A stretch of 64,000 nucleotides of DNA, from assembly GCA_013151645.1 (NCBI GenBank), contig JAADHU010000019.1, positions 1 to 64,000 of the forward strand. Reading direction: 5' to 3'. The first letter of the stretch is position 1. The number at the start of each line of letters is the position of its first letter. Below the pieces are notes generated by a model. That model saw only the letters and a list, made by a program, of their open reading frames with translations. It had not been told where the DNA came from and searched no databases. Below are positions 2,805 through 8,975 of the stretch, one piece after another. Made by a program: the position numbers and the translations under genes. This DNA is from Gammaproteobacteria bacterium (lineage in GTDB: Bacteria; Pseudomonadota; Gammaproteobacteria; Steroidobacterales; Woeseiaceae).

Positions 2805-5800
2805 TCAACCTTTGGATATCTCGATTGACCATATTTCGTCATCCAGCGACCGTTCAGCACTGAAAAGTGGCTTCGTCTGCTTTGTCTTCCATTCCAGTGC
2901 CAGTGTTTCGGCCATCAGAAAGTCACGATAAATGGCCAACGATGCTTCCACGCCGGCCGACCCCGACACACCGAGAACAATTCGGTCAGAGACCTCGAGA
3001 CCGGCCTGTTTGCGTGCCTCCTGCACCGTTCGGACCAGCTCGCGCGCCAGCCCTTCAAGAATCAGATTGTCGTTGAGCGTCGTATCAAGCGCCGTCAGAT
3101 AGCCACCGTCCTCGCCGCACGCGAAACCTTCCGCCGAGCTGGTCTCGATCAGCACATCCTCGGCTTCAAGCGTGATGGTCTGCTCGGGCAGCTCGATTGA
3201 AAAGGCCTCGTTGCTGGCCACAGCCCCGGCGATCGCCGCCCCGTCCGCCTCATCGAGTGCCTTGCGAATCACCGGTATCAGCTTGCCGTATCGCTTGCCG
3301 ATACGCGGCAAATTGGGTTTGATGCGATAGTTCACCAGACCGGCGTCGCGCGCAATAAACTCGATCGACTTGACGTTGAGTTCCTCCAGAATTTGCGCCT
3401 GGTGTCGCGCCAGCGCCTTGGCCGCTCGATCCTCTGGCGCCCTGATCAGTAGCCGTGACAACGGTTGACGAGTGCGCACACCCGATTGACCGCGTGCAGC
3501 GCGAGCCAGTCCGACGACCTTTTGAACCACACCGATCTCGTACAACAGCGCCTCGTCTTCATAATCGGGATTTGTCTCCGGCCAGTCCGACATGTGCACG
3601 CTGACCGGTGCCGTTGCATCGATACCGCGCACAAGGTTCTGGTACATGTTTTCCGCCAGGAACGGCACGAAGGGCGCCATCAGGCGGTGTACCGTACTCA
3701 GGCACTCGTACAGCGTCAGATAAGCAGACTGTTTGTCCTCGGGATCAGTCGATTTCCAGAAGCGGCGCCGGTTTCGCCGTACGTACCAGTTACTCAACTG
3801 ATCGACGAACGATTCAATCGCTTCGCCCGCCGACCTGGCGTCGAAGTTATCCATGGCCACGGTGCACTGACTGATCGTCTGGTTCAACAGGGCGAGCGCC
3901 CAGCGATCCATTTCAGGTCGCTCGGCAACCGGCAGTGCCGCGTTGAAATCGATATCGTCCAGTCGCGCATAGAGCACGAAAAACCCGTAGGTGTTCCACA
4001 ACGTGTTGATAAACGAACTTGCGACATCTGCGACGATCTCGACTGAAACACGTTTCTGCACTTCCGGGGACAAACGCGCCAGGAAATACCAGCGCAGCGC
4101 ATCCGCGCCCACAGTGTCGAAGACGTCATAGGGATCGACGATATTGCCCACCGACTTCGACATCTTCTTGCCGTCTTTGTCGACGATATGACTCAGGCAA
4201 ATGCAGTTCCGGTATGCAACGCTGTCAGACACGAGCGTTGAAATCGCATGCAGTGTATAAAACCAGCCGCGCGTCTGATCGATTGCCTCACAAATATAGT
4301 CCACCGGAAAACGCTCACTGAACGTATCCGCATTTTCGAACGGATAGTGCCACTGAGCATAGGACATAGCGCCGGAATCGAACCAGCAATCGATCACTTC
4401 GGGAACACGCTTCCAGGTCTTGCCGTCCTTCTCGAACGTGATGTCGTCAACGGCGGGCCGGTGCAGATCGAGATCCGTCAGACTCTGGCCCGTTAGCTCC
4501 TCGAGTTCTGCCAGAGAACCCACACAAATGTAATTTTCATCTCCATCGGTCCAAACCGGCAGCGGCGTACCCCAAAAGCGTTCGCGAGACAGCGCCCAGT
4601 CAACATTATTTTCCAGCCACTTGCCGAAACGACCGTCGCGAATGTGCGCGGGAACCCAGTTAATGGTCTTGTTCAGTTCCACCATCCGCTCGCGGAAGTC
4701 GGATGTGCGGATATACCAGGCATTTTTGGCGTAATAGATGATGGGGTCGCCCGTCCGCCAGCCGAACGGATAGCTATGCCGGTAGCGTTCGGAGCGGAAC
4801 ATCAATCCGCGTTCCTTCAGGATGCGAATTAACGGTTTGTCCGCATCCTTGAAGAACATGCCGGCGACCGGCTCGACTTCGGCCAGGAAATTTCCGTCCT
4901 GCCCAACGCCGTGCACAATCGGCAGACCGTGTTTCAGGCCGAGGGCAAGATCGTCGACACCGTACGCCGGTGCGCAATGCACGATTCCCGTCCCGCCTTG
5001 GGTATTGACGAACTCCGCTGACAGCACGACGAAAGCCTCGGCGTCCACCTTGAGGTAGTCGAACAGTCGCTCATAGCGCATGCCGACGAGCTCTGAACCC
5101 TTGAGCGTCCGCACCACTTTGTGCGGCAAGTCGCCGAGGACGGATTCGCGTAACGCCTCCGCCACGATAAACGTCTCCTCGTCGGTCTCGGCGTAGACAT
5201 AGTCGATGTCATCGTTCACGGCGAGCATCAGGTTCGACGGCAGCGTCCATGGCGTCGTTGTCCACACAAGAAATGAGGTATTTGCTTCGCCCTGCACGCG
5301 AAAGCGCACGTACACCGACGGATCTTCAACGTCACGATACCCTTGCGCCAGTTCATGGGAAGACAATGTCGCGCCAATACGGGGATCGTAGGGCACGACT
5401 TTGTAACCCCGGTAGATCAGGTCTTTGTCCCAGATTTTCTGCAGCAGATTCCAGACGCTTTCGATGTAGTGGTTGTCCAGCGTGTAGTAAGCCTCGTCCA
5501 TGTTGACCCAGAAGCCCATGCGGTCGGTCATCTTTTCCCAGTCTTCAATGTAGCGCATGACCGACTCGCGGCAACGCCGCGTGAATTCAGCGATACCGAC
5601 TTTCTCTTCGATTTCCTGCTTGTCGAAAATTCCGAGTTCTTTCTCGATCTCGTGTTCAACCGGCAGGCCGTGAGTATCCCAACCGGCTTTACGCGGCACG
5701 TGATAGCCGCGCATCGTTTTGTAGCGGGGGAATGCATCCTTGAACGCACGCGCGAGAACGTGGTGAATGCCGGGTTTACCGTTGGCCGTCGGCGGACCAT

Positions 5801-5936
5801 CGTTGAAGGTAAAAAGCGGTCGCCCCTGCGACTGCTTGAGCGATTCTTCGAATACGTTTTTCTCACGCCAAAACTCGAGAACCTCGGTTTCCAGCGCAGG
5901 ACCGTTGTAGCGGCCAGTGACTTCCTTAAAACTCAT
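2805..5936 (-). CDS. ileS: Isoleucyl-tRNA synthetase, type 2 (IleRS2) with GIHH signature
   Basis: Charges tRNA-Ile with isoleucine in the cytoplasm. The protein is 1043 residues, longer than type 1 bacterial enzymes (about 930-940) and in the range of the eukaryote-like type 2. The Rossmann fold begins at DGPPTANG. The first class I signature, normally HIGH, reads G56-I57-H58-H59. The second, KMSKS, is at residues 591-595. The GWDTHGLPVE block and the editing-domain sequences (VWTTTPWTLPSN) fit type 2. Type 2 enzymes are naturally insensitive to mupirocin, and the swapped GXHH signature has been associated with still stronger resistance. The gene is not in the usual ribF-ileS-lspA setting and has a T-box leader upstream, both consistent with acquisition from outside. 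It is a single gene unit. Confidence 0.97.
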   Translation of the reverse strand: MSFKEVTGRYNGPALETEVLEFWREKNVFEESLKQSQGRPLFTFNDGPPTANGKPGIHHVLARAFKDAFPRYKTMRGYHVPRKAGWDTHGLPVEHEIEKELGIFDKQEIEEKVGIAEFTRRCRESVMRYIEDWEKMTDRMGFWVNMDEAYYTLDNHYIESVWNLLQKIWDKDLIYRGYKVVPYDPRIGATLSSHELAQGYRDVEDPSVYVRFRVQGEANTSFLVWTTTPWTLPSNLMLAVNDDIDYVYAETDEETFIVAEALRESVLGDLPHKVVRTLKGSELVGMRYERLFDYLKVDAEAFVVLSAEFVNTQGGTGIVHCAPAYGVDDLALGLKHGLPIVHGVGQDGNFLAEVEPVAGMFFKDADKPLIRILKERGLMFRSERYRHSYPFGWRTGDPIIYYAKNAWYIRTSDFRERMVELNKTINWVPAHIRDGRFGKWLENNVDWALSRERFWGTPLPVWTDGDENYICVGSLAELEELTGQSLTDLDLHRPAVDDITFEKDGKTWKRVPEVIDCWFDSGAMSYAQWHYPFENADTFSERFPVDYICEAIDQTRGWFYTLHAISTLVSDSVAYRNCICLSHIVDKDGKKMSKSVGNIVDPYDVFDTVGADALRWYFLARLSPEVQKRVSVEIVADVASSFINTLWNTYGFFVLYARLDDIDFNAALPVAERPEMDRWALALLNQTISQCTVAMDNFDARSAGEAIESFVDQLSNWYVRRNRRRFWKSTDPEDKQSAYLTLYECLSTVHRLMAPFVPFLAENMYQNLVRGIDATAPVSVHMSDWPETNPDYEDEALLYEIGVVQKVVGLARAARGQSGVRTRQPLSRLLIRAPEDRAAKALARHQAQILEELNVKSIEFIARDAGLVNYRIKPNLPRIGKRYGKLIPVIRKALDEADGAAIAGAVASNEAFSIELPEQTITLEAEDVLIETSSAEGFACGEDGGYLTALDTTLNDNLILEGLARELVRTVQEARKQAGLEVSDRIVLGVSGSAGVEASLAIYRDFLMAETLALEWKTKQTKPLFSAERSLDDEIWSIEISKG

Positions 5937-5970: not shown

Positions 5971-6009
5971 AAAATACAACGCCCCGAACGCATCACTGCG
6001 TCCGGGGCG
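5971..6009 (-). terminator. T-box-associated intrinsic terminator
   Basis: A 13-bp stem with a GTGA loop: arm CGCCCCGGACGCA pairs fully (including G-U) with TGCGTTCGGGGCG. It is followed by TTGTATTTT. It lies right after the T-box sequence and about 35 nt before the ileS start, where the mutually exclusive terminator of a transcriptional T-box belongs. Confidence 0.85.
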
Positions 6010-6240
6010 ATGGTCATTCTCAATCGCGGTACCACCCGGTTTCACGAAAGCCTGCGCTTTCGCCTCGTTGTGCCCGATATCGGCGGCCAGCCGATTGCGC
6101 CTAATCAGCCAGGTCGGCCTTTCGGGCAATAACTCCGGGGTGATATTCAGCAGCGACCGATGTGGGGCTCGCACCATTCCCCATTCGCTTTGATCGGATG
6201 TGACCGCCTACTTGTCCCCTTCCACGTCTTGAAGCGGAAA
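5971..6240 (-). promoter_or_regulatory. Isoleucine-specific T-box riboswitch leader of ileS
   Basis: Read on the minus strand, the leader begins with a stem I region (GGGGACAAGTAGGCGG near 6200-6217) and an apical-loop motif, GGTGCGAGCC. A specifier loop, GAATATCACC, follows, whose AUC isoleucine codon is at 6142-6144. The invariant T-box GGGTGGTACCGCG is at 6025-6037, and an intrinsic terminator closes the element. In this class, uncharged tRNA-Ile pairs with the specifier and with the T-box bulge, stabilising an antiterminator, so ileS is read when charged tRNA-Ile is scarce. All core parts are present in the right order and spacing. Stem boundaries are by eye. Such leaders belong mainly to Gram-positive phyla. 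Confidence 0.92.
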
Positions 6241-6269
6241 CTAGCGCCGGTATGAGGAAAATACAAGGC

Positions 6270-6309: not shown

Positions 6310-7032
6310 TCAGTTAATGGTCGGGGACACCGGTTGATCGCTTTCTTCACCGAACATCGCCCGATCGAAAACGTCGATCAGGACCTCGGTCTTCTGTGCT
6401 CCCATGATGAACAGTCGCCGGTTGACCAGAAAATCCGGCACGCCGGTCACGCCCCCTTTGCGAACCTGCGCTTCCAGCAGCAGCACCTGCTGTCGCATCA
6501 GGTCGTCGTCGAGTGCTTTCTTGACGGCGTCCGCGGACAATCCATGTTGATCGCCAATCATGATCAGGGCGTCACGATCCGATATATCCAGACCTTCCTC
6601 AAAGAACCCTTTGAGAATTCGATCGGCCAGCGCCGAGGCATCAACACCCTCCTGGTCCGCCAGCAGCATGAGCTGGTGCGCTTCGAGTGTTTGCGGTACC
6701 CGCTTTATTCGATCGAAGCGAAAGTGAATCCCCTCCGCCTTGCCCGCCCCCGTGAGGTAGTCGAGGCCCGGCTGAATGGTTTCACGACGACCGAACTTGG
6801 AGAACAGGTAGTCGTCGAAAGCCATGCCGTCGACGGGCATGTCGGGGTTGAGTTGGAAGCCGACCCAATTCACCACCGAAGGTCCGCGTACCGCGAGCAA
6901 TGCGTCATCGAGGCGACGTTTGCCGAGATAGGACCACGGGCAAATGAAATCGCCAATAAAATCGACACGCAATGTCGCAACCGGCAAGCTGTCGTCGCTG
7001 CGTGCAATGTTGGTAATGCCAGGATCAATCAT
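6310..7032 (-). CDS. DsbA/FrnE-family thioredoxin-fold oxidoreductase
   Basis: A protein of 240 residues. The start at 7032 is chosen because GGAGGA lies 7 nt upstream; the open frame runs 24 codons further without a better site. The thioredoxin-like fold opens with VDFIGDFICPWSYLGKRRL, and the C-terminal part (GVTGVPDFLVNRR) carries the cis-proline loop. This is the FrnE/2-hydroxychromene-2-carboxylate isomerase-like branch. The active-site motif is C31-P-W-S34, so only one of the two cysteines is present and simple disulfide exchange is unlikely. No signal peptide is visible, so it is cytoplasmic. The substrate is unknown. It stands alone, with the ileS leader downstream. Confidence 0.8.
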   Translation of the reverse strand: MIDPGITNIARSDDSLPVATLRVDFIGDFICPWSYLGKRRLDDALLAVRGPSVVNWVGFQLNPDMPVDGMAFDDYLFSKFGRRETIQPGLDYLTGAGKAEGIHFRFDRIKRVPQTLEAHQLMLLADQEGVDASALADRILKGFFEEGLDISDRDALIMIGDQHGLSADAVKKALDDDLMRQQVLLLEAQVRKGGVTGVPDFLVNRRLFIMGAQKTEVLIDVFDRAMFGEESDQPVSPTIN

Positions 7033-8372: not shown

Positions 8373-8975
8373 GTGAACACGTTGACCCAAATCCGGTTTG
8401 TCTGGAAACCGCTGGTATTCCTGGCCTGCCTCATTCCTGCCGTCCTGGTGGTGACCGATGCCTTTGAAATCACCGGGCGTCTTGGCGCGAATCCTATCGA
8501 GGCGATTCAGGACCGATTCGGATACTGGGGCTTGCGTTTCATACTGATCGCGCTGGCGGTCACACCACTGCGCCAATTGACTGGCTGGAACTGGCTCACA
8601 CGCTTTCGCCGCATGCTTGGGTTGTTCGCGTTCTTCTATGTTTTCATGCACTTTCTGGTATGGCTGATCCTCGACCAACGACTTCTAATGTCTGCGATTC
8701 TGGAGGATATCGTTGAGCGGCCGTTCATTACGTTCGGCTTCGCTGCGTTGCTATTGCTGCTGACAATGACGCTCACCTCAACGCTCGCGATGAGGCGACG
8801 ACTCGGTCGCCGCTGGCAGCAATTGCACAACGGTATTTATGTTGTCGGCATTCTCGGCGTCTGGCATTACTGGTGGCAGGTAAAACTGGATGTTCGTGAA
8901 CCGCTGATTTACGCATCCATCCTGGCCGCATTGCTAAGCTACCGTTTGTGGCGCCGATTCAGAATAAGCCGATAG
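8373..8975 (+). CDS. msrQ: MsrQ, heme-binding membrane subunit of the MsrPQ system
   Basis: Inner-membrane b-type cytochrome that passes electrons from the respiratory chain to MsrP. It has 200 residues, a GTG start and about six hydrophobic segments. Conserved histidines are visible in YVFMHFLVW and in the RRWQQLHNGIYVVGILGVWHYWW region, as expected for heme ligands of the ferric-reductase-like domain. It is directly downstream of msrP and surely in the same operon. Length and motifs match the YedZ family. Confidence 0.95.
   Translation: MNTLTQIRFVWKPLVFLACLIPAVLVVTDAFEITGRLGANPIEAIQDRFGYWGLRFILIALAVTPLRQLTGWNWLTRFRRMLGLFAFFYVFMHFLVWLILDQRLLMSAILEDIVERPFITFGFAALLLLLTMTLTSTLAMRRRLGRRWQQLHNGIYVVGILGVWHYWWQVKLDVREPLIYASILAALLSYRLWRRFRISR

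Follow-up and report, generated by a model that had tools for sequence, protein, structure and literature searches.

The 64,000-nt stretch of DNA analysed here, called the window at its full length, carries on its minus strand the gene ileS2 (2805..5936), which encodes a type 2 isoleucyl-tRNA synthetase (IleRS2) of 1043 amino acids with GIHH and KKMSKS motifs (TIGR00392, 955.8 bits against a cut-off of 621.4). The start codon, at 5936, lies on the same strand as a T-box leader RNA (6000..6233) and about 60 nt downstream of it, and the next gene upstream on that strand, which encodes a DsbA-like protein, ends at 6310. The contig as a whole spans 147 kb, with chaperonin, DsbD and biotin carboxylase genes near ileS2. 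Assignment of the enzyme to type 2 follows from its sequence identities together with the presence of GIHH in place of HIGH: it is 68–81% identical to the full-length IleRS2 of its own family and 92% identical to that of the nearest record, from an unplaced proteobacterium (L057), as opposed to only about 30–34% identical to IleRS1 of the same order. Other TIGR00392 matches in the genome are weaker and fall on contigs C24, in a frame that is ValRS-like by sequence, and C47. The available text of PMC10485003 places the GXHH form in some IleRS2 and in no IleRS1 and ties it to mupirocin hyper-resistance; by analogy, the GIHH enzyme of the window may be mupirocin-resistant as well. Comparison with the acquired mupirocin-resistance synthetases MupA and MupB gave 847.3 and 804.1 bits, below the curated cut-off of 1900.

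Anatomy of the leader

The Rfam T-box model RF00230 aligns with the leader over its entire length (6233-6000 on the minus strand, model 1-219 of 219) at 94.9 bits, exceeding the gathering cut-off of 93, with an E-value of 1.6e-19. This was the sole Rfam match at gathering thresholds in a search of the whole 64-kb window, and the ileS leader was likewise the sole RF00230 match in the 3.96-Mb draft genome of 83 contigs. The first-pass annotation had described a complete isoleucine T-box at this position, with stem I, an AUC specifier, the T-box sequence and a 13-bp terminator, upstream of ileS on the same strand, and had proposed the Rfam model as a check; the full-length match bears out that description.

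Stem I, stem II, a IIA/B pseudoknot, stem III and an antiterminator can be delineated from RF00230 and from covariation over 60 leaders. Stem I has the architecture of a T-box both in the Rfam alignment and in its conserved columns AGCGA and GGUG-n-GAG, and its parts we take to be the kink-turn, the AG bulge and the distal loop. Read directly from the sequence, the specifier loop is GAA-U-AUC-A, in which the isoleucine codon AUC (6142..6144, read 6144-6142 on the minus strand) matches the amino acid of the regulated gene, ileS, and the T-box core GGGUGGUACCGCG occupies 6025..6037 of the same strand. The antiterminator (6002..6039, minus strand) is formed by CCGGG/CCCGG and GCGAU/AUCGC, as judged from the sequence and from pairing over the 60 leaders, and between these two helices sits a UGGUACC bulge, whose UGGN is complementary to the NCCA end of tRNA; presumably, its UGGU can pair with the ACCA of an uncharged tRNA. 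Fold and covariation place an intrinsic terminator at 5971..6009 (minus strand), consisting of a 13-bp hairpin (6009-5980) and a U-rich tail (5979-5971), the sequence immediately after the hairpin being UUGUAUUUU. Folding had also been suggested as a check, and it upheld the terminator, which reaches -27.3 kcal/mol (z -4.93) with no equally stable fold among 200 shuffles, and not the antiterminator in isolation, which is as stable as its shuffles (z 0.07). The eight nucleotides 6009-6002 pair in both states, so that the terminator and the antiterminator, both of them conserved, are mutually exclusive. As a predicted structure, such sharing of 8 nt by both hairpins is the hallmark of a T-box switch.

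Upstream of the leader, TTGTAT (6266-6261) and GCTAGT (6245-6240), separated by 15 nt, make up a promoter-like block (6240..6266, minus strand) that agrees with the sigma-70 consensus at only 6 of 12 letters. A loose form of this pattern, picked after the alignment had been seen, occurs in 66 of 82 leaders from the family and its near relatives, as opposed to 10% of shuffled letter sequences; its distance from the G-run of stem I is exactly 44 nt in 57 of the 82. No tRNA-Ile (GAU anticodon, A73) turned up in the host genome, whether with ARAGORN, with a 16S-end pattern or with either of two anticodon-arm patterns.

We consider it very probable that the leader is a T-box riboswitch specific for isoleucine, which acts by transcription attenuation and governs the one isoleucyl-tRNA synthetase found in the genome. 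Transcription would start at about nt 6233, and the nascent leader would read tRNA-Ile(GAU) through pairing of the AUC specifier with the anticodon and docking of the tRNA elbow on the tip of stem I. With charged tRNA, the 13-bp terminator would form and transcription would stop before ileS; with uncharged tRNA, the ACCA end would pair with the UGGU bulge, the antiterminator would be held and the polymerase would read into ileS. Binding of tRNA, sensing of its charge and read-through are all predictions made from the leader sequence.

Conservation and covariation among related leaders

Using the core with up to two mismatches, we collected 88 leaders, namely 75 of the 77 family matches (those of G210 and G280 being the exceptions), two degraded family leaders, that of G064 and ten loci from named records, including six identical to family leaders. 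Removal of 11 leaders with long inserted hairpins, three others from outside the family and the two degraded ones left 72, and removal of 12 near-duplicates left 60 for alignment. The core GGGUGGUACCGCG is exact in 84 of the 88, a set itself collected by that core, and the AUC specifier is invariant in all 60 aligned leaders, the base just before it being variable (GAA-N-AUC-A). Because the leaders were collected by the core, the invariance of AUC is the more telling of the two. The segment CGGGUGGUACCGCG is invariant in the 60 leaders as well, except for one nearly invariant position.

The predicted pairing is equally well retained. In the paired state, 92.5% of cells over the 60 leaders were paired compared with at most 55.2% when slid, double changes occurred in 31 of 43 pairs (shuffled mean 18.8, with 31 reached in none of 500 shuffles), and covariation was 0.291, compared with 0.153 after shuffling and no more than 0.095 after sliding. 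Both the Rfam structure and a single member (L169) served to choose the 43 pairs, so that the slid controls are biased in favour of these. Compensatory changes are found in stem I, stem III, the pseudoknot and the terminator. Both antiterminator helices are paired in 100% of cells, of which five of the nine counted pairs never vary and are therefore uninformative. For the terminator, 94.1% of cells are paired, and 48 double-change cells are spread over five of its 13 pairs; among 500 shuffles, five double-change pairs were reached by 15 and 48 such cells by none. Stem II is the weakest element (70.6% of cells paired), perhaps due to the alignment and the choice of pairs. To the extent that function can be judged from aligned leaders, this pattern of conservation and covariation is the appearance of a working switch.

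Two other views of the leader have to be set against this pattern. The T-box could be a relic that arrived as a passenger of ileS2 and has become unresponsive to tRNA in this lineage; consistent with such a fate, the leader has been lost or broken in six of the 82 judged family cases, with ileS2 retained. Decay across many genera would then be expected, whereas 76 of the 82 match the full model, the AUC is invariant and the changes within four structural elements are compensatory, all of which makes a mere relic very unlikely. Some actinobacterial ileS T-boxes regulate translation, and the leader might similarly act at that level, or be a constitutive attenuator, instead of carrying out tRNA-dependent transcription antitermination. 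Between its antiterminator and ileS, however, lies a strong, covarying intrinsic terminator with a U-tail, and its alternative arms have 8 nt in common, so that we regard translational or constitutive control as quite improbable. A tRNA-responsive transcriptional T-box is thus the reading that we retain, and the earlier proposal that the leader still works gains indirect support from its covariation and its retention across the family.

Long palindromes lie inside the terminator stem of nine of the 75 fetched family leaders (L020, L027, L032, L155, L157, L172, L174, L178 and L184), several of them with cores such as GGTGACAGTGACC or GGTACCGGACACC. These terminators have 18–35 paired positions and keep the 5' arm CGCCC(C/T)GG as well as the T-rich tail. 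By their sequence, the palindromes look like mobile palindromic repeats that may have been recruited into the switch.

Distribution of the leader and apparent replacement of the native synthetase

Among 296 genomes sampled from the order, a T-box match was obtained in 78, comprising 77 of the 90 in the Woeseia-like family of the window and one of the 206 elsewhere (G064, of family f6); a look for the same leader in relatives had been suggested as a check, and it is indeed widespread within the family. Only 14 of the 296, i.e., 14 of the 78 with a match, pass the Rfam cut-off, and the T-box may therefore escape routine annotation. In a sample of 369 genomes from the class, the two matches were both from family members and the other 367 genomes gave none, and in a sample of 398 genomes from the phylum, the window's own genome was accompanied by a single weak RF00230 match (G852, 26.1 bits), which is probably due to chance. 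These genome sets are samples of larger groups, and since filtering was stricter in the order, class and phylum scans, with no more than 7, 6 and 5 candidates scored per genome, respectively, weak T-boxes may be missed.

The 13 family genomes lacking a match are of two kinds. Eight could not be judged, as the start of the gene is absent or incomplete or coincides with the end of a contig: in G216 the sequence stops 17 nt short of ileS, in G228 and G292 the C-terminal part is at a contig start, and G189, G220, G236, G256 and G276 showed no full ileS2 in the search. The other five have a full-length ileS2 with no RF00230 match even at an E-value of 1; of these, G145 and G258 keep a degraded T-box core, and no core was seen before ileS2 in G232, G250 and G278. 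To them may be added G210, one of the 77 matches, in which only stem I and the specifier are left. Its leader (L051) has a palindromic sequence between the AUC-bearing stem I and a T-run, the core and the antiterminator are gone, and a terminator-like hairpin is still present. With six of 82 judged leaders lost or broken before ileS2, the switch is dispensable for some members of the family.

The gammaproteobacterial context claimed by the first-pass annotation is confirmed by three family genomes whose leaders are identical, over the 200 nt compared, to those of records named Woeseiaceae bacterium (L186 and L059, L172 and L068, L176 and L083, the latter of each being the named record). The IleRS2 of L059, L068 and L083 are 75–80% identical to that of the window, and other close IleRS2 records are labelled Chromatiales, Gammaproteobacteria or Proteobacteria.

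The same annotation had supposed that the lineage has synthetase genes of its own that are not under T-box control. A search with the IleRS1 of the same order (from G048) found none in any of the 20 family genomes tested (of 90), while the two controls, both from outside the family, scored 2194 bits (G048, the query's own genome) and 1058 bits (G005). The T-box therefore controls the only IleRS seen, rather than one that exists beside a native enzyme. According to the part of PMC4861432 that was available, proteobacteria in general have IleRS1, and ileS2 has undergone transfers. Outside the family, the three genomes G048, G005 and G215 all have ileS1 within the cluster murJ-ribF-ileS1-lspA. 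The corresponding cluster in both the window's genome (G000) and G065 is murJ-ribF-lspA, with ileS absent between ribF and lspA; the cluster genes were named by Pfam, and murJ of G000 by similarity. Genomes from family f6 of the same order have ileS2 at this very site, as murJ-ribF-ileS2-lspA without a T-box in G083, as ribF-ileS2 without a recognisable T-box in G108, and as murJ-ribF-T-box-ileS2, up to the contig end, in G064. The simplest story would be that ileS1 was replaced in place by T-box-ileS2 and that the pair then moved elsewhere in the Woeseia-like family.

Origin of ileS2 and its leader

Two IleRS2 trees were built, a quick tree of 94 rows and a careful one of 38 rows, both without IleRS1 and rooted at their midpoints. 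In both, the gammaproteobacterial IleRS2 of the window's kind form one clade (support 100 and 100/100), which sides with Chloroflexota, Armatimonadota and Actinomycetota and has Bacillota apart from it (99 in the quick tree, 97/96 in the careful tree). The branch that joins this clade to Chloroflexota and Armatimonadota has a support of 89/81 with its inner order open, which makes the donor phylum likely, yet not fixed. Counted by eye, GXHH is present in 22 of 22 Chloroflexota rows and in all 25 rows of the gammaproteobacterial clade that hold the N-terminus, as opposed to HIGH or HVGH in 25 of 25 Bacillota rows; GXHH also occurs in rows from Ignavibacteriota, Rhodothermota, Bacteroidota and Actinomycetota, which argues against the motif as a sole guide. 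A Firmicutes donor is disfavoured both by the branch that parts the Bacillota and by the motif, and the source looks like the Chloroflexota/Armatimonadota/Actinomycetota side, insofar as trees and motifs can indicate.

From 80 ileS2 loci, four with a leader of less than 300 nt were dropped, and a core with at most one mismatch was sought within 300 nt in the remaining 76 (background of 2 matches in 1520 letter shuffles). It was found in 17 of 21 loci from Chloroflexota, 15 of 23 from Bacillota, 3 of 5 from Actinomycetota, 9 of 13 from Pseudomonadota (several from genomes already included in the family count) and in all three others, from Armatimonadota, Cyanobacteriota and one unnamed source. 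None was found in the 11 loci from Ignavibacteriota (5), Bacteroidota (2), Rhodothermota (2), Poribacteria (1) and Riflebacteria (1). RF00230 matches were confirmed in L061, L062 and L067 as well as in four Anaerolineae loci (L069, L071, L073 and L090), and the specifier is AUC in all six aligned T-boxes from outside the family. The idea of a leader that arrived along with its synthetase gene is accordingly supported, though short of proof: the foreign-type IleRS2 groups with Chloroflexota and their neighbours, whose ileS2 carry T-boxes, with AUC in the four Anaerolineae loci aligned. No recognisable T-box precedes the IleRS2 genes of similar identity in G083, G108, L063 and L065, and given this patchiness among gammaproteobacterial IleRS2, joint transfer is the simplest reading rather than a proven one.

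Those same loci could instead point to separate origins, with ileS2 acquired leaderless and the T-box added later, especially since G083, L063 and L065 fall within the same IleRS2 clade (G108 being too short for the tree). Against this, a T-box precedes ileS2 in G064 of family f6, in L061, L062 and L067 and, as a core match, in most Chloroflexota loci, the specifier is shared throughout the aligned ones, and a single gain with losses is simpler; we therefore hold separate origins to be unlikely. As the genome is a draft in 83 contigs, contamination of the assembly from a Gram-positive or Chloroflexota genome could also be imagined. The chaperonin, DsbD and biotin carboxylase genes on the contig of ileS2, the T-box and ileS2 standing together in the one-contig family member G065 and the matches throughout the family reduce its probability to almost nil. 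Returning to joint transfer, we infer that a Chloroflexota-like lineage supplied both leader and gene, at a time preceding the diversification of the Woeseia-like family; the leader belongs to a known RNA class and probably travelled with its gene. A broader account, which we favour with some reserve, is that the only, and essential, IleRS of a whole gammaproteobacterial family is an imported GXHH-type enzyme linked to mupirocin hyper-resistance, that its switch was imported too, by in-place replacement in murJ-ribF-ileS-lspA followed by relocation, and that this switch is still evolving, palindromes having been repeatedly built into its terminator stem with the 8-nt arm CGCCC(C/T)GG kept.

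Woeseiaceae are common in marine sediments. T-boxes are treated as mainly Gram-positive, and yet a gammaproteobacterial family has one ahead of the sole IleRS gene found in it. The surveys PMC2494555 and PMC3766115, in their available portions, place T-boxes in Firmicutes, Actinobacteria, Chloroflexi and Deinococcus-Thermus, with Geobacter-type exceptions, in agreement with the rarity in proteobacteria asserted at the outset. The proteobacterial cases reported are T-boxes before leuA in Geobacter and Pelobacter (PMC2494555) and a T-box-like hisS attenuator in isolated Gammaproteobacteria (PMC2965389), again as far as the accessible text of these papers goes. They resemble the present leader in being T-box RNAs within a phylum where these are rare and differ in gene and amino acid, whereas the present ileS T-box has been retained by most members of a family, before the only IleRS found. 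Compared with the ileS T-boxes of Firmicutes such as Staphylococcus aureus, which PMC2494555 cites, the leader agrees in general anatomy, as also given by the Rfam model: upstream of ileS there are an isoleucine specifier, a stem I, a T-box bulge and an intrinsic terminator. It differs in that it has a gammaproteobacterial host, a GIHH IleRS2 and GC-rich stems, and most family members are below the Rfam cut-off. The four Anaerolineae ileS2 T-boxes resemble it in position, in AUC, in a core with at most one mismatch and in a GXHH-type enzyme, and their proteins are 47–50% identical to the window's IleRS2. In anatomy and predicted mechanism, the leader is a standard transcriptional T-box, in an unexpected host and with a clear history of replacement. 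In the open-licence literature searched, no paper joined Woeseia with T-box, nor did any join T-box riboswitch, Gammaproteobacteria and ileS. The family offers a natural test of whether T-box antitermination can operate with the RNA polymerase, NusA and RNA decay of a gammaproteobacterium. It also allows one to ask how the replacement of an essential synthetase carries a regulatory RNA along with the gene.

More distant IleRS2 also occur in the class. Those of 14 other Gammaproteobacteria (36–48% identity) had no T-box match in the class scan, and G022 and G008 of family f8 have a distant IleRS2 without a T-box match; all of these are apparently separate acquisitions. In the quick tree, the IleRS2 of L120 groups with Rhodothermota and that of L047 (family f8) sits on a long, unsure branch. 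Two further loci have features of their own. In L067 (3055-3984), an Arenicellales MAG, a strong isoleucine T-box of 115.8 bits is followed by a reading frame with a GST domain, and ileS2 comes directly after that frame. Downstream of ileS2 in L062, a SAH riboswitch match of 54.7 bits (8565-8645) lies between reading frames for S-adenosylmethionine synthetase and S-adenosylhomocysteine hydrolase.
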